DNA of 64,000 nucleotides. Source: Kiritimatiellia bacterium (GTDB taxonomy: Bacteria > Verrucomicrobiota > Kiritimatiellia > RFP12 > UBA1067). Of the stretch, positions 302 through 24,891 are shown piece after piece. Each line of letters begins with the position of its first letter. The first letter of the stretch is position 1. The notes under the pieces were generated by a model. It was not told where the DNA came from. It did not search any database and saw only the letters and a list, made by a program, of their open reading frames with translations. The stretch spans positions 1 to 64,000 of the forward strand of contig JAILJX010000082.1 of the NCBI GenBank assembly GCA_024694365.1, in the 5' to 3' direction. A program made the translations under genes and the position numbers.

Positions 302-378
302 AACAGGGCGCAGAGACGGCAGAGGGGGAAAGGTTGATTTTGATGGGGACAGTCCCTCCAAAAACACCGATAAGTTGC

Positions 379-384
379 CATAAT
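379..384 (+). promoter_or_regulatory. Possible extended -10 box CATAAT within the 314-bp repeat
   Basis: The sequence TTGCCATAAT resembles the TG-n-TATAAT boxes seen in front of other genes here and is conserved as TTGTCATAAT at 4080-4085 in the second repeat copy. It would drive transcription toward the small Cys-rich ORF. No convincing -35 box is visible. Confidence 0.3.
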
Positions 385-446
385 CGCGACAAATCGGCAT
401 AAAATCGATTTGCGGTTTCCGGGATGGATCGCATGGTCGCTGCTTG

Positions 447-488
447 CGTAAGACTGCGGTCGAAATCGTATAAGACCGTGGTCGAAAT
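447..488 (+). repeat. Two near-tandem 20/22-base units upstream of the small ORF
   Basis: Units at 447-466 and 467-488 share the pattern CGTAAGAC(T/C)G(C/T)GGTCGAAAT. The second repeat copy carries the corresponding pair at about 4148-4189. Roughly two helical turns separate the units, so they could be paired binding sites for a regulator. That role is inference. Confidence 0.55.
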
Positions 489-518
489 TTCCGGCGACCG
501 TGGAGGAAGTTTTCTGCC

Positions 519-680
519 TTGGCGAAAGAAGAATCCCTCAGGGTCCCCGCATATCCCTCCCGTCTAGATTTGTCAGGGAAGGGATGCAAGTTCTACGACC
601 AGGCCTCGCACAGATGCGTCAAAGGAATGGCTGCGGAGACCTCCGCATGCGAGCGCTGCCCGGAGTTCCCGGGTTGGTAG
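519..680 (+). CDS. Small Cys-rich protein (53 aa), TTG start, hypothetical
   Basis: A TTG codon at 519 opens a 53-residue frame ending at TAG 678-680. The peptide contains GKGCKFY, HRCVKGM and ACERCPEFPGW, so four cysteines with a final C-x2-C pair that could bind zinc or iron. A GGAGG sequence lies about 13 bases upstream of the TTG, further than ideal, so the start is uncertain; the frame stays open back to about 474. The same frame recurs in the second repeat copy, where one cysteine and the stop codon are changed. Conservation of the frame with mostly substitutional change suggests it once coded. I know no family for it, and it is too short to identify by eye. Confidence 0.4.
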   Translation: MAKEESLRVPAYPSRLDLSGKGCKFYDQASHRCVKGMAAETSACERCPEFPGW

Positions 681-775
681 GATCCGCGCGATCGACTTGC
701 GCTTTCCGGGATGAACAACCCTGTCGCTGCCGACAGGGCTCCCCGGTTGGGGGATGGTCGAATGACGGGATATGT

Positions 776-783
776 TGTAGAAT
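776..783 (+). promoter_or_regulatory. -10 box TAGAAT, six bases before the CotH-gene start
   Basis: TTGTAGAAT ends at 783 and the ATG begins at 790, with no Shine-Dalgarno between. A transcript starting 6-8 bases after the box would have essentially no leader. The stretch 681-775 upstream holds nothing else that I recognise. Confidence 0.5.
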
Positions 784-789
784 ATCACC

Positions 790-3700
790 ATGAAAATGCG
801 AAAGATTGCTCTGGCAGCCTTGTCTATGGCCGTTTTCCCCGCTTTTGCCGGGCTGGAAATCACGGAGATATGTCCGCGGCCGGAAGAGGCCGATCCGAAC
901 GGAAAGGAATCCGGATGGATAGAGCTTTGCAACAACGGAACGGATTCCGTGGATCTGGGCGACTACGAGCTTCAGCGTTTCAACCTTGGGAAGAAGGCGG
1001 GCGCGGGGGCGTTCGGAAAGCTGCCTTCGTCGGTGCTCGCTCCCGGCGGGCGCGTTGTCGTGTATTCCAGCGAGGAGTACGACAACGCCAAGGACATGGG
1101 GGGCGACGGATTCACGGTCAAGATTTACGATGGCGTCATCGTGCTTCCCTTCAAGGTGAACCCGAAGAAATTTCCGATGGTGAGGCTGCTGAAAGGCGAT
1201 GAAGTGCTGCAGACGGAGCATGTTCCGGTGGATCTCAGGGACGGTTGGTCGTATGCGAAACGCCTTGTCATGCCGAACGCCACGAAGGGATCGGAGAACG
1301 ACGCGACCGGCTCCATCGCGTACGGTCCGAACATCGGCCCTCTGTTCGGCGTCAAGCACAAGCTTTCGGTCTTCGATCCTCTTGCGCGTCCGAAGGAGAA
1401 CGAAGACTATGCCGTATCGATCCCCGTCAATCCGCTGGACGGAACCGCCATCGAGTCCGTGACGCTGAACTTCATCTCCGGCGTTGGAGCTTCCGCGACG
1501 ACAAATTCCATCGCCATGGAGAAAGGCGCCGTCGACAGCAAGGGCGGCGCGGGCCGGTATTGGACGGCGACGGTTCCGGCCGAAGACCTTCCTTCTGCAG
1601 GCGGGCTCCTGAGGCTTTGGACGACGATAACGGAGGAGGGCGGAGCGCAATGGAGAAGCCCAAGCTTTCTCAATCCGGACGATGGTTTCCAATATCTCGG
1701 GACGGTTGTGGAGAGCGCAGAGCTAGACGACGCCAAGCTGCAGACGTTCCACTTCTTCGTGGAGGGCGCGAGCCTGGCGCAGATGGATGTCGATGCCGAC
1801 GACCAGGATCTTTCGCTGGTCCCGCACAACGCCAGGGCGTCCGTTTTCGATTCGCAGACCGGGGCGTACTACGACAACGTGAGAATAGACTTGAGGGGCA
1901 ACACGTCCGGGACTTTCCGCAAGAAGGCGCATGGTCTCAAGTTCGCGAAGTGCCATCCGCTGAAATGCGTGAATCCGATGGACGGCGAAGCGATAGAGGT
2001 GAGAAAGACTTCCTTCACGGCCGAATACTGCGATCCTGCGTACGTGCGCCAGTCCCTTGCGTTCTGGCTGTTCAGGAAGGCCGGGTGCAAGGTTCCGTTC
2101 CACTATCCCGCAAGGCTGAACCTCAACGGGGAGTTCTACCAGCTCGCGTTCCACACGATACGCTTTTCGGACGAGTACATAGAGGACTACTGCAAGCTGG
2201 ATCCCCGGGGGTACGGATACAAGAACTCCGGATGCCTTCACTGGGGCAGATCGTGGACCGACAACTCCGAGATATACAACTGGGTGGCGTGCGAGAAGAA
2301 GACTCCGGACGACGGGGACGAGACAAGCTGGAACGCATACGTCCCTCTGCGCGACTGGGTGAAGTCGTTCAACGCGGGGATGGAGGCCGATGTCGACGAT
2401 CAGCCGGAAATCACGAAGGAAGTCGTCAAGACCTTCGATCTGCCCGCGTGGCTGAATTATCTCGCCGCCGCCAGGATAACGATGGAGACGGACGACACGT
2501 GGGCCAATCTGTCCGTATACGGGGACGTGAACGGAACCGGGACATGGACTCCTCTCGGCTATGACATGAACCAGACTTGGGGACACATCTATTCGACCAT
2601 GTGGAACGGCGCGAAGCCGATGCGGCTCGCGGAGGAGGATGGCTTCAAGGCGCACCCCTTCTTCGGCGGCAGAAGGGTTCTCTGTCATTTCGCGAACGGC
2701 GACAGGTCGCATCCAGGCGGCGAAAACTGGGCCTGCGAAGCGATATGGCAGTCGACGAAATTCCGCCGCATGTACTTGAGGCGCCTGAGGACTCTCATGG
2801 ATACCATGCTCAAGGCCCCCGGAACGGCAAAGAGCGAGACTCCGGTGTGGCGCGAGGCCATGAGGATAAAGAAGGCGACCGAAGCTTGCGCTGCGCTCGA
2901 CTATGCGAAATGGCGCGCGGACAGGGGCAATCTTCCCGAAGGATCGAGCGGAACGTTCTGGCTCGACACCGCCATCTACTGCTGGGACAGGGCCTTGAGC
3001 CACGATGAAGGCTATGACGACCTTTGGGACAACTATATCGTCCCCCGCCGCAGGCATCTCTTCGAGACGCATTCCGCGAACAACGCTTCATGGGAGGCGG
3101 GATACGGCCAGGGCCTCAACGCGGGCATCCCGGAGCCGCAGAGCTCTCTCGCGGTCCTCGCGCCGAAGCTCTCGTTCGTGAAGACGGGCGACGGCGTTCT
3201 TGAGATATCCAACGCGTCGGACGAAGCGGTGGACATGAGCGGATGGAAGCTCTCCGGCGCGGTGGAGTGGACGCTTCCCGGAGGCATGGTCGTGGATGCG
3301 CACGACACCGCGTATGTCGTATCGGACAGAGCCGCATACATAAAGGCGAACGAAGCGCACCTTGCGGACGAACTTGTTGCCGGCAATGCGAAATTCACAT
3401 CCGCCGGGACCGTGTATGTCGTTCCGGCCTCCGTAGGAAATGCGGACGGCACGGTGGAGCTTGGAGACGGGGGCGAAGTATGGTTCAGCGGGTCCGGCCC
3501 GGTGAATGGCGAATGGTCCGCAGGATTGGAGTGTCCGCTGTACGTCGACTCTGAAACTGCGGACGACGGAGTGTTCTTCAGCCTGGATCCGTCGCTTGCG
3601 ACGCGCGGGAAAGGGGTTAGCGTGGAGATGGTCGTCAAGCAGGACACGCTTTTAGATGCGGCGGAGCTGCCTTCGGTGGAGACGATGGGGAATCCCGTGG

Positions 3701-4047
3701 CTGCGGTGGTCCTTGCCTCGGATGGAGACGCATGCGCATTCCATGCGTTTTCGCGAGACGGTTGGACGAAACTCTCTTCCCCGGGGATGTCGCCGGTTCC
3801 GGGCGTCGCGTATGCGCTCAAAGTGGACATCGACTGCGTAAACGGCATGTTCTCGGTGTCCGCGAGAGACGGGTCTGAATGGACTCCTCTTTCCGATGGC
3901 GGAGGCAAGACGTCCTTCCCGACGGTCGGCGGCAGAAGATCATTCGCCAAAGTCGGATTCTGCGGTCGCGGACGCGTCGACAGGCTTGATGGCTACGAAA
4001 CCGCCGCGCCTGAGCGAAAGAAAGGCTTTTTCATCAGGATAAGATAA
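790..4047 (+). CDS. Secreted CotH-kinase-like protein with two lamin-tail domains
   Basis: The 1085-residue product begins with a signal peptide (KIALAALSMAVFPAFA). Residues about 20-140 look like a lamin-tail domain (LEITEICPRP..., SGWIELCNNG). A CotH-type region follows from about residue 360 (RIDLRGNTSGTFRKKAHGLKF is split by the usual CotH RG-x-S-x-x-x-x-K-K pattern) to past residue 590, where GYDMNQTWG matches the CotH YDMD metal-binding signature with N for the second acidic residue. A second lamin-tail domain lies near 793-890 (LEISNASDEAVDMSGWKLSG). The protein ends FFIRIR, like the tails of the giant proteins downstream. CotH proteins are atypical protein kinases or structural surface proteins; the substrate here is unknown. 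It is preceded by a leaderless-type promoter and flanked by 314-bp direct repeats, suggesting it moved or duplicated as a cassette. Confidence 0.8.
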   Translation: MKMRKIALAALSMAVFPAFAGLEITEICPRPEEADPNGKESGWIELCNNGTDSVDLGDYELQRFNLGKKAGAGAFGKLPSSVLAPGGRVVVYSSEEYDNAKDMGGDGFTVKIYDGVIVLPFKVNPKKFPMVRLLKGDEVLQTEHVPVDLRDGWSYAKRLVMPNATKGSENDATGSIAYGPNIGPLFGVKHKLSVFDPLARPKENEDYAVSIPVNPLDGTAIESVTLNFISGVGASATTNSIAMEKGAVDSKGGAGRYWTATVPAEDLPSAGGLLRLWTTITEEGGAQWRSPSFLNPDDGFQYLGTVVESAELDDAKLQTFHFFVEGASLAQMDVDADDQDLSLVPHNARASVFDSQTGAYYDNVRIDLRGNTSGTFRKKAHGLKFAKCHPLKCVNPMDGEAIEVRKTSFTAEYCDPAYVRQSLAFWLFRKAGCKVPFHYPARLNLNGEFYQLAFHTIRFSDEYIEDYCKLDPRGYGYKNSGCLHWGRSWTDNSEIYNWVACEKKTPDDGDETSWNAYVPLRDWVKSFNAGMEADVDDQPEITKEVVKTFDLPAWLNYLAAARITMETDDTWANLSVYGDVNGTGTWTPLGYDMNQTWGHIYSTMWNGAKPMRLAEEDGFKAHPFFGGRRVLCHFANGDRSHPGGENWACEAIWQSTKFRRMYLRRLRTLMDTMLKAPGTAKSETPVWREAMRIKKATEACAALDYAKWRADRGNLPEGSSGTFWLDTAIYCWDRALSHDEGYDDLWDNYIVPRRRHLFETHSANNASWEAGYGQGLNAGIPEPQSSLAVLAPKLSFVKTGDGVLEISNASDEAVDMSGWKLSGAVEWTLPGGMVVDAHDTAYVVSDRAAYIKANEAHLADELVAGNAKFTSAGTVYVVPASVGNADGTVELGDGGEVWFSGSGPVNGEWSAGLECPLYVDSETADDGVFFSLDPSLATRGKGVSVEMVVKQDTLLDAAELPSVETMGNPVAAVVLASDGDACAFHAFSRDGWTKLSSPGMSPVPGVAYALKVDIDCVNGMFSVSARDGSEWTPLSDGGGKTSFPTVGGRRSFAKVGFCGRGRVDRLDGYETAAPERKKGFFIRIR

Positions 4048-4061
4048 GCCGTCTATTCCCC

Positions 4062-4375
4062 AAAACGCCGGTAAGTTGTCATAATTGCCCTAAATCATCA
4101 TAAAATGGACTGGCGGTTTCCAGGATGGATCGCATGGTCGCTGCTTGCGTAAGACTGCGGGCGAAATCGTGTAAGACTGCGGGCGAAATTTCCGGCGACC
4201 GTGGAGGAAGTTTTCTGCCTTGGCGAAGGAAGAGTCCCTCAGGGTCCCCGCATATCCCTCCCGTCTAGATTTGCCAGGGAAGGGATGCAAGTTCTACGGT
4301 TCGGTCTCGGACAGATGCGTCAAAGGAATGGCCGCGGAGCCCTCCGCATGCGAGCGCAGCCCGGAGTTCCCGGGT
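4062..4375 (+). repeat. 314-bp direct repeat, copy 2 (downstream of the CotH gene)
   Basis: Ungapped match to 361-674 at a constant offset of 3701 bases. It starts 14 bases after the CotH-gene stop codon and ends 24 bases before the -35 box of the next gene. It contains the CATAAT box at 4080-4085, the paired 20/22-base units and a decayed copy of the small Cys-rich ORF. Confidence 0.9.
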
Positions 4376-4426
4376 CGCTCGGGTCTGCGAGATTGCCCGT
4401 TGACTTTTCGGCGGGGGATTTGGTAA
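4220..4426 (+). pseudogene. Decayed second copy of the small Cys-rich ORF
   Basis: The frame beginning at TTG 4220 matches the 53-residue ORF of repeat copy 1, but CERC has become CERS and the TGG-TAG ending has been lost. The frame therefore runs on through the next gene's promoter to 4426. Other replacements are D to G, Q to S, H to D and T to P. Loss of the C-x2-C pair plus read-through into promoter sequence argue that this copy is no longer functional. Confidence 0.45.
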
Positions 4427-4429
4427 AAT
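4400..4429 (+). promoter_or_regulatory. Promoter of the first giant protein: TTGACT, 18 bp, TGgTAAAAT
   Basis: A -35 box TTGACT (4400-4405) and an extended -10 TTTGGTAAAAT (TAAAAT at 4424-4429) are separated by 18 bases. The same architecture precedes the genes at 10554, 13577 and 18937. Confidence 0.8.
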
Positions 4430-4486: not shown

Positions 4487-7400
4487 ATGAAGAAATGCAT
4501 TGCCGCCGTGGCGGCTGTCGTTGGTATGGCGTTTGCGGCGCAGTCTGCAGATGAAATGCTGTATCATATGTCGTTTGAAACAATCGGCGACGGCGGTGTC
4601 GCCCTGCAGAACGATGACGGGACGCTGACGTCGGTGACGCCGCAGCTCGTCGATTCAGGATACATAAATTACATTACCAGTGCGGGTACTTTTACGCCGA
4701 AGTTCGGCTCGTACTCGTATCGATCCAACGGTGGTACAATCGGAATAATAGATGACACCAACGGACTCGTCTCCGTCGACACTGGCTTTACGATCAGTTT
4801 TTGGTTCTATCCAGAGTCGATTTCCAATTGGCGATCCTTCTTCGGTTTCGGCTTCTTGAATGGGAACAACTATGGTTATGAGAAAAACGGCCAGTCTTCC
4901 TTGCAGATCAACGGCTATGGATACACCAGCGATGGTGAAAAGACTTTGAACCAGGGGATTTCGATCAATGCGTCGGCTTGGAACCATTTTGCTCTCGTTT
5001 GCGAACCCAATGCTTCGTCCGTGAAGATCTACATCAACGGAACAGCGTACGATGTCGCCGAAACATCCGGCATGACCGGTTCGCTCTCGCAGATACTCCT
5101 TACCCGCAGGCGCAACACGACCGGCGCATCCGCCGCGCTTCGCCAGAACAAGCAGACGGTCTGCTACGATGAGTTCGCACTCTACAACTTCGCGATGACA
5201 TCAGAGCAGATAGCCTGGCTTGGAGAGAATGCTGCTTCCGCTGACATAATCGGTACAACTGAAGTGGTTGATTGTGGCTCTGCATACTCCGCTTCGACAG
5301 CCAACGCCTTTTCGACCACATGCGATAAAATCAAGCTCAACTTCGACGCGGGCGCGACCTTCACGATTGATGAGGCACTTACGAGAACGTACAACCTCGT
5401 CTGCGAGGGAAATCTTACCCTCGTGGCGGGCGAGAGCTACACGCCTACCGCGTCAGATTTCGCCTACCTCAAGGTCGCGGGCGTGACGGGGAACCTCATT
5501 CGCTCGTGGGTGACGACTGAATCCAACAGCGGCGTCTACGGCTTCAACTTCAACGCCGCCGGCGCAAGAAACGGGTCTCGCGACGGAACCAGCTGCAACG
5601 AGACTTCCATCGCTCTTGAAATCGGCGATTGGGCATATAATCTGTACTCTCCCTCCGGCTCGACAACCAACTTCTTCAATGACGGGCTCTCGACTCTTAC
5701 TTGGTCCGCGAAGAACGTGTATTCCGAGACCGATGGCTGCTCTGGCTCCTTCATCAAGGGCTACCTCGACGACGGGAACGGAATCACCATCACGATTTCG
5801 CACATTCCGTATGCAAGCTACGATCTCATCATCTACTGTTCGACGGATGACGACACGAAGAGCTTCACGGCGAAGACTGTGAACGGCACCATTTATGCCT
5901 GGGATGATGCCGCGGGCGGGACCGTTGAGACTAACAGCACGACTGCGACTTGGGGTCTCGCTTCGAAGGCGGCAGGAAAGGCTGTCTACGGCGCGAATAC
6001 CTTGAGGGTCAACGGACTTTCCGGTGCTCTTACGCTCAACAGCGTCGTGCAGACGGTTAACGGCAACAACGGCGCGCGCGGCTGCATTTCGGCGATTCAG
6101 ATCATGCCCGCCGGAACTAGCACCGCGCCTACGCTCACTCTCACGGAAGACGCGAACTGGACGACGGCCGCCAACTGGAATACTGCCAACATACCGACAA
6201 GCGGCCCCGTAATCGTCAATGTCACTGGCGATGTTACGCTCACTGTCGACGAGGCGATCGCCCTCGGAACCGTAACAGTCTCGGGAACCGGCTCTTTGAA
6301 GATCGTCTCCGATACTTCCGCAGCCACAATCGAGAATATCACTTCCGAGGTCCCTGTCACGATTTCGGGCTCGAAGATTTCGGCTCCCTCCATCTATGCG
6401 GATGCCACTTGGGAGTGTGCGGTTGACGAAATATCAACGACTTCGTACAACCATCTCTACAAAGGCGGCGCGGGTTCTGTCGCCGACGGCGTCACGAATG
6501 CCGTACAGATCGCTCTCGCGGGAGGCTCCGCCACTCTGACCGGCGAGACGTATTATCTCATGGATGGTTACAACGGGACGCTCTCCACTGTCGTTTTCAC
6601 CAATGCTACGGCTGTCTATACGAACGGACTCAGCCTCGGCAATGCTGCGTATGTAATGGCGGGCGACTCTACGGTGACGCTCGTCCCGAAGACGGGCGAA
6701 AAGCCGCGCGCTCTATATCTCGTCGACGGCGTGAACAACCGCACGGCGACCTTGACTTTGAAGGACTCGGCGAAACTCGTTTCGCAGGGCCTCAACAACG
6801 TCGACTCCAACGCAGGCGCGGTTCTCTTCGGCCACTATAACGGGACTTCCGTCTTCACGATGCAGGATAATGCTTCGTTTTCGACGCTCGGCGAAGTGCT
6901 CGTAAGCAAGACTAGCGGCAACAACACGATCAACATTTCGGGCGGAACGTTCACCGCGCAGGGCATCAAGGTCTCTGCGGGAGCGGGCGGAACGCAGGCG
7001 TTCAACTTCTCCGGCGGAGAGCTTGTCCTTGGCGATATCGGCATTTCGGCCTACGGCAGCTATACGATGCCGGTCAATGTCACGAACTCGCCTACCATCA
7101 AGGCTTTCGCTTCGACAATGCCGTTCACCCAGCCTCTCGCCATTGCGGCGGAATCCGTGCTCAACCTTACAACGACGGCTGCGGCGACCGAAGTCACGAT
7201 GACGGGAGCATTCTCGGGCGATGGCGGAGTTTCCGTCGGCGAGAACATTACCCTTGCGCTCGGAACGGAGAGCCGCCCGCGCATTGCCGCTCTTGCGGGC
7301 AAGCTCAAGATAACGATGAGCGATGACGAACTCTCTGCAGGGAAGATAACGCTCCCGACTTCGCTTGAAGCGGTTCCCGATGCAGCGCTCGTCTCCGTGT

Positions 7401-9094
7401 ACGACGGCGAGTCGGAGGTCTCTGTCGGCGCGATGAGCATAGCGGACGGAACACTCACGATTCCGTTCGAGGTCGCCAACCTCATCACTGTATCCACGAA
7501 GGTGAGCGAACTCGACTCGACGCTTTCGGGAGCAATCACCGTGGCAGGATCTTCGGAAGGCGAGCCTATCGTGTTCGATTTTGACGCGGATCTCCCCGAG
7601 GGCGTGACAGGCGTCGCTTTCCGCGGCACGGTCGTCGTCAAGGGGACGGTTCCGTCGACCGTTACGTTCGCGGCAAACGCGGTCATAATCACTGAAGACG
7701 ATCAGTCTCTCAGCAACGATGATTCCACCGTAACGTTCATCACACGCGGGGGAATGCTTACGCTTTCCGGCAATGCTTTGAAGGTTCAGGCCGATACGAA
7801 CGGTACGTTCAATGTCAACGGCAACCATGCCAAGTTGTATCCGATCGTCCTCAACGGCGGAACGCTCATGAACGCCGGCAGTGAGGTGAACGATACCTAT
7901 AAGATGTTCCCGTATGTATCGCTTATCTCCGATTCGTTCATCGATACGACGAATGAGTTCGGTTGCGTGGCCTCGGGGTATGCTTCGCTCAGTTTCGCGC
8001 TCAACGGCCATAAGCTCACAAAGAAGGGTCCTGGCGTGTATCATATATCGACGGCAACCCTGACCGGCGGCGGAACGCTCGATATTCAGGAGGGGACTCT
8101 CCGTTTCTTCAAGGGCACGACGATTCCCACCGGCACGACGCTTAACCTCATAATTGCTCAGGGCGCGACGCTGCGTACGGACGGAGCGGTGTCCAACAGC
8201 GGAACGATCAACCTGGACAACGAGGGGCTTTGGACGATGTCGCTCGAGAGCAATGCCGCTCCGGCGCTCGGGACAAGGACGGGCAATGGATCCGTCTGGA
8301 TCAAGAACTGCAACAACTGGAGTGCGCCTAACGGCAATGACGATTCCTCAAAGATGAATCTCGGCTACTATGTAGCGGAGGGCGCTACGGCGGTTTCCAC
8401 CGGAAACTCCGGTTGGCTCCCGTTCACGACCAGTGGCACGCGAGACTTCGGCTTCCGTCTCAAGGTCGTTGATGAAGAGGCGACGGCTGGCACGACTGTC
8501 GGCATAACTTTCGCAGACGGCTCGCTCTCGAAGTACAGGTTTGCGGCTCTTGAGGGTGACGGCACTGTTGTCGTCAATACGAAGGCACAGTCCGCCGCGG
8601 CGTACATCTTCTGCGATGCGACGAACTTCACGGGCAACGTGACGGCGCAGAACCGTCCGATTGTATTCGGAACATCCGCGACCTCCTCGACTGAAGGTAC
8701 GATTACGGTCAATGAGGGCGTCGGCGTGACTGTCGCCGCGGGTAAGACCTGGCAGGCTACCGGCACGGTCACGGTGAACGGCGATATCGGAGGCTCGGGT
8801 ACTCTCAAGGGCTCGACTGTTTCGCTCGGGAATGGCATCACGTTCACGTATGACGGCGACCCGATGACGATCACCGGTACGCCTTCCTTCGGCAAGCGGC
8901 TCTATGTGAAGGGCGGTCTCAATCCGAACGACTACCTCTTCATAGTCGACAGCCAGCCAGACACCTTGCCGAAGATCACGCTTGTCGACGAAAACGGCAA
9001 TCCTACCGGTGCGCTTTGGACGAAGTATGTGACCGAGGGTACGACCGGCTATATCCAGGTCTATACGCCCGGCATGAGGATATCGATCAAGTAA
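4487..9094 (+). CDS. Giant secreted LamG / beta-strand-repeat protein (1535 aa)
   Basis: The product has a signal peptide (KKCIAAVAAVVGMAFAAQSA). Residues about 24-240 form a LamG/concanavalin-like domain (FTISFWFYPES..., WNHFALVCEP..., YDEFALYNFAMT). A second module at about 345-545 (KGYLDDGNGITI, YDLIIYC, VNGTIYAWDD, RGCISAIQI) also occurs in the 18937 protein. The remaining two thirds are Ser/Thr/Gly-rich beta-strand repeats of autotransporter-associated type (GGTLDIQEGTL), including a FALNGHKLTKKG unit shared with its paralogues. There is no C-terminal beta-barrel; the end is PGMRISIK, matching the family tail. It has a TTGACT/TAAAAT promoter, a hairpin leader with GGAGGTAAGT, and a strong 3' hairpin. 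It is most likely a surface adhesin or glycan-binding protein; the export route is not evident from the sequence. Confidence 0.75.
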   Translation: MKKCIAAVAAVVGMAFAAQSADEMLYHMSFETIGDGGVALQNDDGTLTSVTPQLVDSGYINYITSAGTFTPKFGSYSYRSNGGTIGIIDDTNGLVSVDTGFTISFWFYPESISNWRSFFGFGFLNGNNYGYEKNGQSSLQINGYGYTSDGEKTLNQGISINASAWNHFALVCEPNASSVKIYINGTAYDVAETSGMTGSLSQILLTRRRNTTGASAALRQNKQTVCYDEFALYNFAMTSEQIAWLGENAASADIIGTTEVVDCGSAYSASTANAFSTTCDKIKLNFDAGATFTIDEALTRTYNLVCEGNLTLVAGESYTPTASDFAYLKVAGVTGNLIRSWVTTESNSGVYGFNFNAAGARNGSRDGTSCNETSIALEIGDWAYNLYSPSGSTTNFFNDGLSTLTWSAKNVYSETDGCSGSFIKGYLDDGNGITITISHIPYASYDLIIYCSTDDDTKSFTAKTVNGTIYAWDDAAGGTVETNSTTATWGLASKAAGKAVYGANTLRVNGLSGALTLNSVVQTVNGNNGARGCISAIQIMPAGTSTAPTLTLTEDANWTTAANWNTANIPTSGPVIVNVTGDVTLTVDEAIALGTVTVSGTGSLKIVSDTSAATIENITSEVPVTISGSKISAPSIYADATWECAVDEISTTSYNHLYKGGAGSVADGVTNAVQIALAGGSATLTGETYYLMDGYNGTLSTVVFTNATAVYTNGLSLGNAAYVMAGDSTVTLVPKTGEKPRALYLVDGVNNRTATLTLKDSAKLVSQGLNNVDSNAGAVLFGHYNGTSVFTMQDNASFSTLGEVLVSKTSGNNTINISGGTFTAQGIKVSAGAGGTQAFNFSGGELVLGDIGISAYGSYTMPVNVTNSPTIKAFASTMPFTQPLAIAAESVLNLTTTAAATEVTMTGAFSGDGGVSVGENITLALGTESRPRIAALAGKLKITMSDDELSAGKITLPTSLEAVPDAALVSVYDGESEVSVGAMSIADGTLTIPFEVANLITVSTKVSELDSTLSGAITVAGSSEGEPIVFDFDADLPEGVTGVAFRGTVVVKGTVPSTVTFAANAVIITEDDQSLSNDDSTVTFITRGGMLTLSGNALKVQADTNGTFNVNGNHAKLYPIVLNGGTLMNAGSEVNDTYKMFPYVSLISDSFIDTTNEFGCVASGYASLSFALNGHKLTKKGPGVYHISTATLTGGGTLDIQEGTLRFFKGTTIPTGTTLNLIIAQGATLRTDGAVSNSGTINLDNEGLWTMSLESNAAPALGTRTGNGSVWIKNCNNWSAPNGNDDSSKMNLGYYVAEGATAVSTGNSGWLPFTTSGTRDFGFRLKVVDEEATAGTTVGITFADGSLSKYRFAALEGDGTVVVNTKAQSAAAYIFCDATNFTGNVTAQNRPIVFGTSATSSTEGTITVNEGVGVTVAAGKTWQATGTVTVNGDIGGSGTLKGSTVSLGNGITFTYDGDPMTITGTPSFGKRLYVKGGLNPNDYLFIVDSQPDTLPKITLVDENGNPTGALWTKYVTEGTTGYIQVYTPGMRISIK

Positions 9095-10553: not shown

Positions 10554-13424
10554 ATGAACAGTAAATCGTTCCGTTCTTTGACGGTCTCTGCCGTTTCTTT
10601 GGCGGGGGCAATTTTTGGCTTTCCCGCGAAGGCGGCCACTCCAGTAGCGGTTTGGGATCGCGACTTCTCGACGGCTGTCGAGGGCTATACGCTCAACTTG
10701 AACGGTAATACACTCTCAAGCGACAACTCCACCATCACCATAACCCAGGCGTCGCTTGGCGTTGACGTGAACTTCACGACCGCCATGACGAGCGGAATGA
10801 CGATTATCGTCCACTACGGGAACCTCACGACCGGATCAAAGGACAAGATGCTCGCCACGAGCTGCATCGTTTCCGACTACACGAAGGACCGCACAGGCAT
10901 CGACCTCAAGCAGGGCGGCGGACTACAGGGTGCGTTTTACAACAACGGCTGGGCTGACAACGGGAACGTCGCCAATTCCATCGGCTCAAGCGGCTATATG
11001 GCGTTCAAGTACAAGCACGACGTCGGCACGTACATCTACCAAAGCAGCACGGCGGGAGGATTCAACGCCAACAACTGGGGCTCTTCGGGCCTAAAGTCCA
11101 GTTCCGACACGAGCATCTACGGCGTGACGGTGGGCGGCATGCGTTCGGGGTCCCCCAACAACAACTGGTCCGCCGCAACGGACATGACGATCACAGGCAT
11201 CGCCGTGTTCGACAGCGCGCTTTCCGTCGACGAGATGAACTCGTACACCTTCCCGAGCGCGGCTGCGTCTGCCACGATGACAGTCGCGGGCGAGTGCTCC
11301 TGGTCCGACACGACGAAGTGGGACGGCGGAACGGCGGCGACCTCCGGAAACGTCACGCTCAACGTGACGGGTGGCGCGGTGTTGACCGTCGACGCCGACG
11401 TCTCCATCGAGACGGTCACGGTTTCCGGCTCGGGCACGCTGACGATCGTCGCGGGCTCCGGCAACACTGTGACGCTGGCCGCGATCGACGCGGGCGAAAT
11501 CACGGCGCTCAACCTCAAGGACATCAATACGTCCGGAGCAGTCACGATCGCGGAGACGGGAACTGTCACGAACGAGGTCTCGGGCGGCGGAAGCGTCACT
11601 TGCGGCGCGCTCACCTGCGCGGAATCCGTCAAGACGGGCGACGGAACGCTGACATTCGTCGGTCTCTCGACGGCGACGAACTTCCTCGTCTCGGCTGGCA
11701 CTGCGCAGAATTCCAGCAGTGCGCGCAACGACAACAAGGGCACCGGCTACGGCTACTATAAGGGCGGCACGGCGACTGTCGACGAGCTGACCACGATTAC
11801 GGTCGCTTCGGGCGCGACGCTCGACCTCGCGAACACGAGGGGCGTCTGCTACCGCGTCATATCGCAGGGCGGTGCGATCAAGAACAGCGGCAGCGACATA
11901 GATACCAACCAGCGCCAGATGACCACTTTGACGCTAGAGGGCGAAACGACCGTTTCCGGGAATATGTTCGGACTCCTCGGCTCCCAGGCTGCGGCGACGA
12001 CTCTCGCGACCGGCGGAAACACGCTTAACGTCGCCATGAACGGCGGCAAGAGCTTCATTCTCTGCAATACGACAATCACGGGCGGCGGAACGATCAATGT
12101 AACTTCAGGATCGCTTACGCTCAGCGGTACCGTTACATACGATGCAACCGGCGCAACGTCCGGGCAGGCGCTGTTCAGTTTCCCGGAAGGCACGGAAGCG
12201 AGCGCATCCGGCATTTCGTTCACTAATCTTCCGGAGGGGACGTCATATTCCATCCAGGGCAACCAGATACTTCTCATCGATTATGTCGCCAAGATCGGCG
12301 AGAATACATACAAAACGCTGACCGATGCCGTGGCTGCGGCCTCCGGTACGGATGTCATCAACATAGTTGCGACTACGCCCGCCGAGACGCTTGCTCTCAC
12401 GAAGAATGTGACGATTTCCAACTCGACTGACGTGACGATCAACGCGACCATTTCCGGCGATTATGGAATCGTGAAGTACGGCGAGGGGACTCTTACGTTC
12501 GCCACTGCTCCTTCTACATACACAGGAGGATTCACTGTAGCGCAGGGCACGGCTAAGACAGCCTCTTCCGCAGTGAATGTCCATACCGGTTCCGGATTCG
12601 GCAAATATCCTGAAGGTGCCGCCGCCGCAAACCTCTATACGATCACGATCTGCGCTGGCGCGACGCTCGATCTGGCGAACACTGCGGGCGTCTGCTACAG
12701 TATCGTTTCGCAGGGCGGAACGATCACGAACAGCGGAAGCGACATCGGCGACAACGAACGTCAGATGACGACTCTCACTCTTGAGGGCGATACGACGATC
12801 ACTGGCAATACGTTCGGCCTTCTCGGATCTGGATATGCATCCACGACACTCACGTTGAATGGCCATAAGCTTACTGTCAACCTCAACAGCGGAAAGACTT
12901 TCATCCTCTGCAACACAACTATCTCCGGCTCGGGGACGCTGGAAATCGCCTCCGCGACCTGCAGCGCAGTCAGAGACAAGGCCTGCGCCGGTACGGACGA
13001 GGGCTTCACGCTTCAAATCGATTCGGGAGCGACTTTCTCGGTTCCGCAGACCTCCGCCTGCACATTCGCGAACGTCACGAACTCGGGCACGATCAACCTT
13101 TCCGGCGGTTCGTTCACGGTGAACGGGACTTATGCCCCCGCCGCCGCAACGGCCACCATCAACAATCTGACGCTTGCCGCGAATTCGACCCTGGATGTGA
13201 CAGTGGGCGCCGCTGCCGTGACCGCCGCTTTCGCCGGCACATCGCCTATCAATGTGACCGGAACCGGTCTTGTGAATGGATCCGTAATCGTCACCGGTCT
13301 CGAGAATGAACCATCCAGCCTTCCCCGCGTAAAGGTCGGCGGAAAGCAGTACAGGACGGTGTATGACTCTACCGCGAAGACGCTCTCGCTGTCGTTCACG
13401 GCGCTCTCGATTTCCATCCGGTAA
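10554..13424 (+). CDS. Giant secreted beta-strand-repeat protein (956 aa)
   Basis: The signal peptide ends AIFGFPAKA, and the mature start ATPVAVW is nearly identical to that of the next paralogue at 13577. The first 240 residues look like a lectin-type jelly roll. The rest is beta-strand repeats, including GEGTLTFATAPSTYTGGFTV, a good autotransporter-associated repeat match. An internal duplication of about 150 residues is clear: residues about 375-525 and 658-808 share ATLDLANT-x-GVCY, NSGSDI, RQMTTLTLEG and KxFILCNTTI. The C-terminus (SSLPRVKVGGKQYRTVYD, ending SISIR) matches the 13577 protein. There is no barrel domain. A surface adhesin or glycan-binding role is inferred. Promoter, Shine-Dalgarno and 3' hairpin are all of the family type. 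Confidence 0.75.
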   Translation: MNSKSFRSLTVSAVSLAGAIFGFPAKAATPVAVWDRDFSTAVEGYTLNLNGNTLSSDNSTITITQASLGVDVNFTTAMTSGMTIIVHYGNLTTGSKDKMLATSCIVSDYTKDRTGIDLKQGGGLQGAFYNNGWADNGNVANSIGSSGYMAFKYKHDVGTYIYQSSTAGGFNANNWGSSGLKSSSDTSIYGVTVGGMRSGSPNNNWSAATDMTITGIAVFDSALSVDEMNSYTFPSAAASATMTVAGECSWSDTTKWDGGTAATSGNVTLNVTGGAVLTVDADVSIETVTVSGSGTLTIVAGSGNTVTLAAIDAGEITALNLKDINTSGAVTIAETGTVTNEVSGGGSVTCGALTCAESVKTGDGTLTFVGLSTATNFLVSAGTAQNSSSARNDNKGTGYGYYKGGTATVDELTTITVASGATLDLANTRGVCYRVISQGGAIKNSGSDIDTNQRQMTTLTLEGETTVSGNMFGLLGSQAAATTLATGGNTLNVAMNGGKSFILCNTTITGGGTINVTSGSLTLSGTVTYDATGATSGQALFSFPEGTEASASGISFTNLPEGTSYSIQGNQILLIDYVAKIGENTYKTLTDAVAAASGTDVINIVATTPAETLALTKNVTISNSTDVTINATISGDYGIVKYGEGTLTFATAPSTYTGGFTVAQGTAKTASSAVNVHTGSGFGKYPEGAAAANLYTITICAGATLDLANTAGVCYSIVSQGGTITNSGSDIGDNERQMTTLTLEGDTTITGNTFGLLGSGYASTTLTLNGHKLTVNLNSGKTFILCNTTISGSGTLEIASATCSAVRDKACAGTDEGFTLQIDSGATFSVPQTSACTFANVTNSGTINLSGGSFTVNGTYAPAAATATINNLTLAANSTLDVTVGAAAVTAAFAGTSPINVTGTGLVNGSVIVTGLENEPSSLPRVKVGGKQYRTVYDSTAKTLSLSFTALSISIR

Positions 13425-16500: not shown

Positions 16501-17146
16501 CCATATCATAAACGGCACCGTCACATGCCTTCCGAAGGTAGTGCTCACAGACTATGGCACGACGGGAGCTCTCACTTTAAGCGATGGCTATTCCGGCTCC
16601 GAGTACATCATCAACGAGCTTTCCGGCACGGGTACGATAACGGACAACACCGGTTCGACGCAGATATTCCGCATTTTGGCATCTTCCAATTATACGGGTT
16701 CCGTATCGCTCACCGGCAAGCGAGTCGTATTCGGAACTGATGCGATCGTCCATGGTTCGGCTCCGAGCTTTACGGTAAGCACGAACGCGACGGCCTATCT
16801 TGCTTCCGGTGCGACATGGACGGGCGGCAACGGCCTATATGTCGCGGGCACGCTCGTGAACAACGGCGGAACGCTTCCTGCGAGCGTAGCTTTCGCCGAC
16901 GGCGCGACGCTCGACTTCGGAACCGCCGGCACGGCGTTGTCGGTCGCCGATAAGACGCTCACGCTCGGCTCTACGCTTACTGTGGTGGGTGACGGCCTCA
17001 AGAATGGATCTGCGATATTCACCGGGCTCACCGCCGAACCCTCGACGCTTCCCCGCGTCACGGTCGGCGACACGACCTACAGAACGGTCTATTCCGATGG
17101 ATCGGTGCTGCTCAAGTTCGTAGGATTCAGCATCTCCATCCAGTAA
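13577..17146 (+). CDS. Giant secreted beta-strand-repeat protein (1189 aa)
   Basis: A paralogue of the preceding giant protein: signal peptide ending AIFGFSAKA and mature start ATPTAVW. Residues about 25-225 form a jelly-roll-like domain. The body is made of short Gly/Thr/Ser-rich strand repeats (GAGTLKLSSG, GSGTLNIVNS, GTGDVTFMMG) typical of autotransporter-associated beta-helices. The C-terminal 60 residues (STLPRVTVGDTTYRTVYSDG ... FSISIQ) closely match the end of the 10554 protein. No translocator barrel is present. N- and C-terminal ends are better conserved between paralogues than the middle, the pattern expected if secretion and anchoring signals are at the ends and the middle diversifies. 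Binding specificity is unknown. Confidence 0.75.
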   Translation: MNSKTVRPFVTPAIAAAAAIFGFSAKAATPTAVWEGTISGTTNGYTIVEATDSTLGSTIDLTAADTQKVSVLIKYSGLSAQSSGYYTLASVKETRGYTIGARNSSVGGLSLTGYFAANSLNGYAFSTTPTLPASGYFLFTYADEVANNSGTAAYAGSSVAAMTGGLNTSLRWTHASYRITTLSIGGPVEVNSTTSVSAWPGVTIDAVALFVGEILTPSDVADYQFPSEVTGDEYTATADSNMNWDDLIWNKTLPADLSSSTVRVTVEDGVTLTMPDSLSGIGNLYITGGTLTFGSTSALTMDGGAITSAMTVPASTTVVLDGATISGAVTVNGTLQTKGTTMLSSSSNTVPSGGTLEVVSGTTTFNAASQGIAGTLTIDAGATYVNALTADALTYSGSPTVNVYGTLSMDTTRWTVGSGTYNFYTGSVISGSGQGDNGALDTMDGVTPTYNFLKSGTAEGTVTLSAALRIRDGLTLNVAEGVTVDCTSVTKAYGYTASAPVTKSGAGTLKLSSGANILARNPLTVSAGTLDLAGGTVASLTMTGTAALAVTSGSYQPTFSSYTGAITVASGATLTMTSAEQAAAGSITVAEGGTLKIILTAAELASGYTAENVTLDGASDNITFLDEGGTEYSGSGKTIGAQGNFWIGGESGTWATDSNWSYGTAPTSSTIASITNAATITVTATDVAGAVTVNEDVTLTGVSGSTTAATSLGLVTIADGKTLTFEATGDSYFWGVAGGTLVKTGSGTLNIVNSTSTSYAVAGTTVQVNEGTLCIHNANQDCYMSDPTFIVGENGTLDNLGYFTVTGTLTIESDYEKTVFKNSDYAVSGVITHARVRGTPTLVKNGTGDVTFMMGTQNGSLSAVTVNGGTLNMGSKQSATISGAVTGEGVFGVTGTGEVILTAPNQFAISTVSGTGTIVSSTIYPGSGTLLTCFQNSTDWTGSFCLRNISSSKGNINFNVFGNTNSTVIVQGLTGHIINGTVTCLPKVVLTDYGTTGALTLSDGYSGSEYIINELSGTGTITDNTGSTQIFRILASSNYTGSVSLTGKRVVFGTDAIVHGSAPSFTVSTNATAYLASGATWTGGNGLYVAGTLVNNGGTLPASVAFADGATLDFGTAGTALSVADKTLTLGSTLTVVGDGLKNGSAIFTGLTAEPSTLPRVTVGDTTYRTVYSDGSVLLKFVGFSISIQ

Positions 17147-21900: not shown

Positions 21901-24891
21901 AACAATGTTTACAAGACCTTCACCGTCAGCAACATCACCGTCTGCGCCGGTGCCACAATCCAGGGAACGGGCAAACTGATAGTGAACGGCGATTTCACTG
22001 CCGACGGAACTGTCGGAGAGGGTGTGATTTCGCTTCCCTCCAGCATGACTCTCCGAGAAGGCGCCAACTTCACCGTTCTGGGCGGCTCGGCCATTCTCAA
22101 CCTCGGCACGGCGCGCCCCGCTTCGCTCACCTGCGAAGACGGCGCGACGATCCGTTTCACGAAGTCGGTGGGTGACGATGGCGAAATCGACCTCTCGTTC
22201 ATAACTTGCGATGGCACCCCCACGATTGAACTCTACAATGTGGACGGCACCCTCGACGAAACGGTAACGCCCGTCGACAGCAAACTCACTTACGACTTCG
22301 AAGTTTCCGGCGAGGCTTGTCTCTTCGACTATCCGTTCAATGTCGACCCCGCCAATTCCAACAATCTCGTTTCCGTAGGACAGAACAAGACGAAACTCAC
22401 GCGCGATACGACGTGGGGCATCCCCGATGAGGACTCTGCGTTCGATAGCGACGGCAATCTTTACGCGGCTACACTCCCCTATCTCAACAAGGGCGTTCTG
22501 GTGCTCTCATCCGCTTCTGCGTTCTCGGCGGCGGTGTATGCGACTCTTCCGAGCGCCATAGACACGGTCCTGATGAGCTTCGGAACAAGTTTCGAAGGCG
22601 CCGTTACGATAACTTCCGGAGATACGGCCAACACAGTGGACATCATATACACGCCGGCGACTGCGGATGGCGGCACGGCGACCAAGACGAAGTTCGTCAC
22701 TCGCGCCATTCCCAAGGCGTCGAGCACGAAGCATCTCTACATATTCGTTCTCGAAGATGCGAAGAACGAGAGCGGCGACACGGTGACGCGCGTCACGATC
22801 TATATCGACGGAAGCCGTCTTACGAGGTTCCTGACGGCCTCGAAGCTCACTCTTGGCAACGGATTCCAGATGGGTTCCTTGCACGGTGGACTTCGCGATG
22901 GAGAAACAGGGAACGGCATCGCCGTAACCGATCTCCACCGTCTCGCCAAAACCGACTTGGCTCCTGTGATCGGCTCGCTCAGGATGTACGATTTCGCGCT
23001 CGGCCCGAACGCTGTCAAGAAACTCGCCGCCGAATTCCCGTACGTCTCCGAGAATCCGACGGCGGAGCGCACCGTCTCCGATTCGGAGTCTGCGGCATGG
23101 TCGAGCGAAAGCGCGTGGACTTTCACCGGCGTCAAGGATTCCGAGGATCAGCCTGTGACGACGGGTGACGCTCCTCTCGCCGATATGGACGTCACCTTCA
23201 CGGCGGAGACTAACGTCACGGTCGACGTGAACCTCGTCGGCAACACCGTCCAGTACGCCTCGCTGACGCTCAATGGCCCGGGTTCCATCAAGCTGACCGG
23301 TTCTGGCGCAATCCAGCCCGCGACGGCGCTTACGGTCAACACGCTCGTCACCAACGTCTACGGCGCCGCGGATTTGGGCCTCGCGCCTCTCACCATGGGC
23401 GAGAACGGGAAACTGGTCTTCGACTATTCGGCGTATGTGCTGACTGCGGCATTCGGCGCGGGAGAGACGATTCAGCTCACGGGCGAGACGGATGAACTCG
23501 CGGAGGGCAAGATCGAGTTCATCAAGCCGTCGACCTCGTCGAAGTATCATGGCTCGCTCGTTCGCTACGATGCGAATCTCGGAGAGTACATCGCTTTTAT
23601 CGGTCCTGACCATGAGCCTCAGACGGTTTATCTCGCTCCCTGCAACTTCGGAAATTACACCGAGGTTGGACTCGACCAGGAGTTCACCACCAAATCCATT
23701 GCGATGAACGGCGACACGGTCGCCTTCACGGAGGATGGCGAGTACACGATTTCGCGCACCGAGGCGGTCGTAGGGTTTGACCTTAACGGAAAGACCGTGT
23801 CGATTGCATCGAGTACGCTCGATCCCGTGATCATCGCTGGCGACGGTTATCTCACAGGCGGAAATTCGTCCGTCAACATCTCCATCGCGGATGGCGTGAC
23901 CGTAACAGCTGTCGATGGCGCAACGTACGGGGCGGTCAGCGGAGCGGGAACATTGGTGGTTCCCGAAGGCGTCACCGTGCACCTTTCTAATGCGAGCGCG
24001 AACCTCTCCGGAAGCGGCACTATTGCCTATCATGCAGGTACCGTTCCCGAGTCAAAGTCGAAGCTTAAGGCGGAGGCGTGGACCGGAACCGCCCGCTTCA
24101 CGGGCTGCACGTTCGCCGGTGCGAACCCCGGAGAGTACGGCAACGCCAACTCTACAGTCGAGCTTATGGGATGCAGCGGCTATCTTGAGGTGGCGAGCTT
24201 AACGATCGCCCCGGCGATCAAGTTCACCGACGACCCCGATAGCGGCAATCCCGGCTTGAAGATAACCGCCTCCAGCACGAAGACGTACACCTTCAACAAG
24301 ATAACCGGCACGGGAACTTTCCAGCTTCAGCAGGGCGGCGATGGACAAGCCCTCTTCATCATCAAGGACATGTCTGCGTTCGAAGGAGCGATCAAGCTTG
24401 TCGCACCGACGGGAACGGGCTATCAGAATGTCCTCGTAAGCGCTGTAGAGACTTCGCTTCCCTCTGGATTCGGCACGGCGAACGGAAGAATCGTCTTCGC
24501 TTCCGACGCGACGCTTTCGATGAAGGATGGAATGACGCTCACGTCCGTCTCGGGCACATACTTCGCAGGGTCGAGGCTCAATATCGCGGGAGGAAGCATC
24601 GTGGGTGGCTTCGTTCTCGCAGTTCCGGAGACGAGAGATCAGCCCGTCGTGAACTTTGCGACGACTGATTCCGAGCTCTCCGTAGCGGGCGGAAACGCCG
24701 TCTGGCTGATGACCACGGAGACTACCGGCGAGGGAACCGAGGCCACGACTACGGTGACTCACACGATCGGCTCGGGTGCGGATGTGCCGTTCCTCCTGAA
24801 CGGCGCAGAAGCGCCCAAGTACAAGATCAATGTCGGTCCTGCGCGAATCGACATCCGCCCGAAGTACGGATTCTACATCAACCTCCGGTAA
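18937..24891 (+). CDS. Giant secreted multi-domain beta-strand-repeat protein (1984 aa)
   Basis: The largest protein in the window. A signal peptide ends FSAFAARP. Residues about 33-235 (ISVNFGANHG, KGYLDDGQ, YNVIVYAIT, RGCIAAIQVV) and 366-625 (ISIKFNP, IPYQVFDLYVYH, LGLAGIQLV) are two copies of a jelly-roll-like module also found in the 4487 protein. Beta-strand repeats follow, with the family unit DLQGFTLTKTGSGSFILCNT near residue 940. A LamG-like domain spans about 1125-1370 (TLGNGFQMG, IGSLRMYDFALGPNAVKKLA). More strand repeats lead to a tail ending GFYINLR. No barrel or known anchor is present. It is probably a cell-surface glycan-binding or adhesive protein; binding targets are unknown. 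Confidence 0.75.
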   Translation: MAFKALRSFATATVAIVAALFTFSAFAARPSRTISVNFGANHGKQPSGSADSGSLVSGIPCSAWINAEGASGSSSEVVAYDSMAGGNVTLDGTALSWVANTTWYTGYSTPYLKGYLDDGQSSGEYGYATVKLTGIPFESYNVIVYAITDTGNRQYSAYKVNGKFYKWDSATSATVEASSFTDAWGDSDTHTPTLGVNAICVENQSGDLTLGGYIRTDSLKIRGCIAAIQVVENEDVPSVDISGATTVSAINSQIAACIESNPTARRVAVNIADGASITHDATPYTGTVAVEYAFAGAATLTLSADQLSAIGAMAQGEVFDAGADFFGDAYTETSGEITISNASSIPEGYKLATKNNLPYVYKKTNSISIKFNPASEYEGMIAPGDANVGAYKMPGIAWNHSKIYTGTGARTAEIFQVKDGNGETVPDTLVYYYMPNMYDVNGRNISGRNKQTTGNGKLTYSYFDDSVRSSRTLPTAFEEHVYNGIQHIIPRTPAASATATANLGWCIGVTNIPYQVFDLYVYHASDQSGSITLLPVAVKANDGEWKYFAGDNAGSTVVSTIDSTWNGAPYCDSETMVEGTNYIRYRISPATLGLAEGESIDVVYLSHPSRTTYKTGRLGLAGIQLVKVASDGFYKRNKNSESTAWFAENSWLTSAGAAATWTNPEEGDVAYATINASDVPEIVVDQDVTATLVTVTSNGSLENPFSFTGEGTVNAPVDFTGYTGVFTNPTFKVSGTLAFGDKSGLVYHAEEGETLNARSYNCAGTVTKSGAGTVSLANGSSAGINIEGGTLEYNIAADAVETASGAFTGSGNFVKSGAGTLVLSNGTQPESGFTVNGGTLRLNRTSGSYSFWDATDGRPVSIDAGGTFDICGSSGFPANVAFMSEGARWVNSGAEVGETKAQARSLTLYANGIVDTDSKFGLVKNGYGETSLDLQGFTLTKTGSGSFILCNTSSDSRGKIVVSEGALEISEKAVSLPSVDLEIASGATNNVYKTFTVSNITVCAGATIQGTGKLIVNGDFTADGTVGEGVISLPSSMTLREGANFTVLGGSAILNLGTARPASLTCEDGATIRFTKSVGDDGEIDLSFITCDGTPTIELYNVDGTLDETVTPVDSKLTYDFEVSGEACLFDYPFNVDPANSNNLVSVGQNKTKLTRDTTWGIPDEDSAFDSDGNLYAATLPYLNKGVLVLSSASAFSAAVYATLPSAIDTVLMSFGTSFEGAVTITSGDTANTVDIIYTPATADGGTATKTKFVTRAIPKASSTKHLYIFVLEDAKNESGDTVTRVTIYIDGSRLTRFLTASKLTLGNGFQMGSLHGGLRDGETGNGIAVTDLHRLAKTDLAPVIGSLRMYDFALGPNAVKKLAAEFPYVSENPTAERTVSDSESAAWSSESAWTFTGVKDSEDQPVTTGDAPLADMDVTFTAETNVTVDVNLVGNTVQYASLTLNGPGSIKLTGSGAIQPATALTVNTLVTNVYGAADLGLAPLTMGENGKLVFDYSAYVLTAAFGAGETIQLTGETDELAEGKIEFIKPSTSSKYHGSLVRYDANLGEYIAFIGPDHEPQTVYLAPCNFGNYTEVGLDQEFTTKSIAMNGDTVAFTEDGEYTISRTEAVVGFDLNGKTVSIASSTLDPVIIAGDGYLTGGNSSVNISIADGVTVTAVDGATYGAVSGAGTLVVPEGVTVHLSNASANLSGSGTIAYHAGTVPESKSKLKAEAWTGTARFTGCTFAGANPGEYGNANSTVELMGCSGYLEVASLTIAPAIKFTDDPDSGNPGLKITASSTKTYTFNKITGTGTFQLQQGGDGQALFIIKDMSAFEGAIKLVAPTGTGYQNVLVSAVETSLPSGFGTANGRIVFASDATLSMKDGMTLTSVSGTYFAGSRLNIAGGSIVGGFVLAVPETRDQPVVNFATTDSELSVAGGNAVWLMTTETTGEGTEATTTVTHTIGSGADVPFLLNGAEAPKYKINVGPARIDIRPKYGFYINLR

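Follow-up and report, generated by a model that had tools for sequence, protein, structure and literature searches.

The 314-bp direct repeat flanking a CotH gene in the genome of a rumen-type Kiritimatiellia bacterium is, with a probability of about 80%, a long member of a modular, non-coding, intergenic repeat family that is restricted to the species and occurs at nine loci. The bracketing of CotH would then merely reflect that the spacers on both sides of the gene are intergenic. The repeat lies in the window, that is, the whole stretch of 64,000 nucleotides that was analysed, which represents contig C116 of a 2.46-Mb genome in 129 contigs.

A direct repeat around the CotH gene

Segments 361-674 (copy 1) and 4062-4375 (copy 2) form an ungapped direct repeat at a constant offset of 3,701, as a sequence-only reading of the window had described, with 284 of 314 positions identical (~90%). 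The 30 differences comprise 19 transitions and 11 transversions (K2P 0.103), the longest exact runs shared by the two copies are 44, 39 and 38 bp, and outside ~358-685 the similarity drops to background. A chance origin is excluded, because the genome search recovered copy 2 at E=7e-122. The upstream reading frame finishes 60 bases ahead of copy 1, which itself ends 115 bases short of the CotH ATG (790). Copy 2 begins 15 bases past the CotH stop (4045-4047), and its end precedes the ATG of the next giant gene by 111 bases. That the copies stand just before and just after a single gene is therefore correct, but the bracket is not limited to that gene, as a third, degenerate fragment of the repeat (691-730; 78% over 40 nt) lies within it as well. 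Inside the bracket, neither terminal inverted repeats nor, by Pfam, a transposase domain was found, the two features by which an insertion sequence or composite transposon would be recognized, in agreement with the earlier view that the unit is not an insertion sequence.

Table 1. Features of the repeat region (positions in the window) and the nine loci of the repeat family (contig coordinates)
Feature	Position	Strand	Remark
GGGGACAGTCCC palindrome-like motif abutting left end of copy 1	345..356	+	also abuts the contig C96 copy
Copy 1, left module	361..448	+	dispersed, 7 loci
Copy 1, two tandem 22-bp units GTRTAAGACYGYGGNCGAAATY	447..490	+	
Copy 1, right module CCGGCGACCGTGGAGGAAGTTTTCTGCCTTGGCG	491..525	+	also on contigs C122, C61 and C26
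53-codon frame in copy 1	519..680	+	stretch private to the two window copies; probably not a gene
Degenerate third left-module piece, between copy 1 and CotH	691..730	+	
CotH kinase-like secreted protein gene with lamin-tail domains	790..4047	+	1085 aa
Copy 2, left module	4062..4149	+	
Copy 2, two tandem 22-bp units	4148..4191	+	
Copy 2, right module	4192..4226	+	
Copy 2, tail	4227..4375	+	otherwise only in copy 1
Sigma-70-like promoter before the 4487-9094 gene	4400..4429	+	outside the repeat
Giant secreted protein gene after copy 2	4487..9094	+	
Locus 1 (copy 1)	C116:361		
Locus 2 (copy 2)	C116:4062		
Locus 3	C116 end and C122 end		joined by an exact 141-bp overlap
Locus 4	C61:14737-15026	-	
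Locus 5	end of C96		
Locus 6	C58:44031		
Locus 7	C26:911-1009		
Locus 8	C73:14993-15091		
Locus 9	C47:2297		

A modular repeat family at nine loci

The unit gave 16 DNA matches in its own genome, which reduce to nine loci (Table 1); the inventory was drawn from sequence searches of one genome, the only one available for the species. The dispersed part is the first ~165 bases of the unit, and bases ~170-314 are found only in the two window copies. The modules are arranged as a left module of ~88 bp, zero to four tandem 22-bp units (GTRTAAGACYGYGGNCGAAATY), a right module (CCGGCGACCGYGGAGGAAGTT) and a variable tail, with individual loci devoid of one or more modules. The number of 22-bp units across loci is 2, 2, 4, 4+1, 1, 4, 2, 0 and 0, the extra single unit being at C61, and the copies on C73 and C47 have a common right-hand tail that differs from those of the others. 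At up to two mismatches the 22-bp unit occurs at 16 places in the genome (0 for the reversed control), and a profile of the left module identified seven strong loci, of which one is divided over the ends of two contigs.

Outside this genome, the left-module profile reached a best E of 0.008 per genome over 144 relatives, its weak matches being about as many as expected by chance. At the DNA level the unit found no match in 57 relatives (34 of them of the same genus) or in the plasmids and phages searched, and no exact 18-mer of it was found in the viral contigs searched. Because of this absence of matches, the family may be young or very fast-evolving.

Since bases ~170-314 are private to them, the two window copies are best taken as products of a local duplication, or of gene conversion, of the long form. 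One copy would have been made from the other, which would explain the extra tail that they share, and the two would since have diverged by ~10%; the order and direction of this duplication are conjectural. Exchange within the family was probed at the informative sites of copy 1 alone, with copy 2 (2) and the copy at the end of C116 (3) as the parents compared. The sites read 333333333222322222222222223332, so that copy 1 agrees with the C116-end copy over its first 30-40 bases and with copy 2 over the remainder (permutation P value ~5e-5, or about 1 in 20,000 random orders). Copy 1 is thus a recombinant, and the copies seem to exchange sequence. This mosaic supports gene conversion within the repeat family, whose copies would undergo exchange by homologous recombination and also gain or lose 22-bp units.

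An adjoining motif and the possible mobility of the family

A palindrome-like motif, GGGGACWGTCCC, lies directly against copy 1 and the C96 copy at their left ends, and the genome carries one Y1_Tnp/RAYT-like gene. Together with the intergenic, dispersed and species-specific distribution of the family, this is what would be seen if the unit were a non-autonomous mobile element (MITE or REP/REPIN-like) served by a transposase in trans, an account that concerns the spread of the repeat and is partly compatible with its being a modular intergenic family. It is nevertheless unlikely, as no terminal inverted repeats or target-site duplication were seen and the modules have no common ends. Moreover, some of the roughly dozen genomic occurrences of the motif (the reversed control had 0) lie inside coding sequence, and GGGGACWGTC, the only motif sought there, was absent from the 2.1 kb surrounding the Y1_Tnp gene. 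Frames beside the C122 and C58 copies that had been suspected to be transposase remnants had no Pfam match and are not claimed as such.

The motif GGGGACTGTCCC, of which the genome has about a dozen occurrences against 0 for the reversed control, is found four times in ~510 bases at G000:C21:9275-9788 (L108), in or beside what looks by eye like a dihydropteroate synthase coding sequence. On C96 (L119/L120, near 85729-86005), an inverted pair, GATAATGTGGCAAAGTCTGGGATG, is flanked by two GGGGACTGTCCC motifs spaced 265 bases apart, an arrangement that resembles a small palindromic element next to a repeat copy. Another intergenic repeat family, with CATTGGGTGCA and TGCATTAATGCA words, is present near several copies (L058 6100-6300 and L059 2300-2500). 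In addition, two nearly identical frames (L054:14419-14814 and L058:6611-6889; ending ...FATVWIGRLLKRQVLAEHLAYLNKRLNEVPQFGAYAITSGLK...) lie beside repeat copies; they found no match in Pfam and are possibly a decayed mobile gene.

Gene neighbours and a possible regulatory role

The copies occupy intergenic or almost intergenic positions throughout, with the one on C58 overlapping the last 12 bases of a MATE frame. Neighbours identified by Pfam include AA_kinase (preceding an aminotransferase-like frame, the pair being argB-argD by appearance), PFOR (pyruvate:ferredoxin oxidoreductase), Rex-like, MatE, ParA and guanylate kinase (gmk), and a further neighbour, on C26, encodes a secreted protein of 2103 aa that matches metallopeptidase and GH16 domains weakly. 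Three of the nine copies are located ~110-130 bp before secreted-protein genes, namely CotH, the 4487-9094 gene and the giant on C26; the earlier observation of copies placed ahead of surface-protein genes is thereby borne out and extended to a third, outside the window. Every copy also seems to be co-directional with its nearest upstream gene, a tentative pattern in that several such genes are only reading frames. Both features count against the main reading, the shared direction being unexplained by plain clutter, as does the complete absence of indels over 314 bases at 10% divergence, which could hint at constraint.

A regulatory role of the repeat is possible. In its favour are the three copies ahead of secreted-protein genes, the exact two-helical-turn pitch of the 22-bp units and their near-palindromic, GACC-GT-GGTC-like core. 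A function of the unit as regulatory leader (operator array or cis-RNA) ahead of surface-protein genes is nonetheless improbable: the other copies adjoin housekeeping genes of unrelated kinds, often at a long distance from a start, and the promoter-like site visible before the giant gene sits outside the repeat. The two copies are predicted to fold differently as RNA (z of -2.2 and +0.4), no compensatory changes were found in the left module, and no conserved fold was seen for the whole unit or for the left module. A 6-bp GGTCGC/GCGACC match between the outer modules exists in three copies only, and Rfam had no match for the unit (only tRNA elsewhere). A more elaborate version, in which the 22-bp units are protein-binding sites of a lineage-specific regulator, the repeat spreads this operator before secreted-protein genes, and recombination between copies alters unit number so as to tune or reshuffle surface-protein expression, would be a long shot.

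The CotH gene is not a supported cassette

The sequence-only reading had proposed that homologous recombination between the copies would excise the CotH gene as a circle or amplify it. In favour of such RecA-type recombination sites are the direct orientation and 314-bp length of the copies, exact runs of 38-44 bp that would permit crossing-over in principle, the mosaic of copy 1, by which copies do recombine, and the different neighbourhood of CotH in a sister species. However, a divergence of 10% is expected to suppress crossing-over through mismatch repair, and most sibling copies bracket nothing. The part of the proposal that stands is sequence exchange within the repeat; excision of the gene, possible in principle, is unsupported, and the mosaic does not show it.

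The gene itself gives no sign of recent amplification. CotH (PF08757, E=3.6e-23, plus LTD (lamin-tail) domains, by Pfam) has paralogs in its own genome that are only 46-51% identical, so the near-identical extra copies expected of an amplified cassette were not found there. Its full-length ortholog in the related species G008 (76% identity) lies between other genes and lacks flanking direct repeats; CotH is thus independent of the repeats, and the genes around it are not conserved. The sequence-only reading had also suggested a search for loci with a single unit and no CotH gene, and none was found between the same neighbours in the relatives searched: the genes upstream of copy 1 and downstream of copy 2 returned weak or partial homologs only, with no shared neighbourhood seen. 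At another locus of the family, PFOR and Rex are not kept as a gene pair in relatives. That reading had further allowed that a unit recurring without relation to any gene would be a dispersed repeat, and this is what the genome holds, the nine loci being mostly beside unrelated housekeeping genes. Excision or amplification of a CotH cassette is accordingly highly doubtful; the flanking of CotH is more in keeping with ordinary genome clutter than with a cassette that moves or has been amplified, and the repeat presumably has no CotH-related function. A false lead is thereby removed.

Least probable of all is that the repeat is the duplication of a gene for a small cysteine-containing protein, the 53-codon frame, which is preceded by a GGAGG motif before its TTG and is open in both copies but has lost its stop and one cysteine in copy 2, exhibits no clear constraint in any frame (pS 0.11 versus pN 0.07), and has no homolog in 57 relatives and no Pfam match.

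Comparison with known intergenic repeats

As a modular intergenic family, the repeat resembles in its architecture the BOX elements of Streptococcus pneumoniae (PMC3049150), which likewise consist of a left module, variable tandem middle units and a right module, and are intergenic, dispersed and limited to one species or its close relatives. The A-B(n)-C order with variable n is present here with n from 0 to 4, some loci being without the left or right module. In contrast to BOX, the middle unit here is of 22 bp, only nine loci were found, no RNA fold joining the left and right modules is supported, and the host belongs to another phylum.

STAR and REP/BIME are looser analogues than BOX. The STAR elements of Staphylococcus aureus (PMC3532100) are also species-restricted intergenic direct repeats with a recurring spacer sequence and varying unit number, yet their units are of 14 bp, GC-rich and at least 40 bp apart, whereas the 22-mers here are contiguous and have flanking modules. 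REP/BIME sequences with RAYT transposases (PMC2817692) are likewise extragenic, mosaic and species-specific, and the palindrome-like motif abutting some copies and the single Y1_Tnp gene recall them. They are, however, high-copy short palindromes, whereas the main unit here is not a palindrome and copy number is low (nine loci, and about a dozen places for GGGGACWGTCCC); nor was a pair of inverted REPs seen around the transposase gene, GGGGACWGTC being the only motif sought in its 2.1-kb stretch.

A small literature search found no earlier reports of such repeats in Kiritimatiellae, and a BOX-like modular intergenic family is here described in an uncultured lineage of this group. Contigs C116, C122 and C96 end in copies, so these repeats break contigs and matter for assembly, and the variation in unit number could serve strain typing.

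Large secreted proteins of the region

CotH domains are also duplicated within one protein, since a 2983-aa frame (L085; G000:C105:1406-7972) harbours two CotH-like regions that are 46-51% identical to the window CotH. The five large secreted proteins of the window end alike, in GFFIRIR, GMRISIK, ALSISIR, GFSISIQ and GFYINLR (4027-4047, 9074-9094, 13404-13424, 17126-17146 and 24871-24891, respectively), and the two non-secreted neighbours checked are without such a C-terminal tail. In G008, the CotH ortholog ends in KFLIRLR and its upstream neighbour in GFYVRIR. This short tail could be a C-terminal sorting signal or beta-signal of Kiritimatiellae surface proteins.
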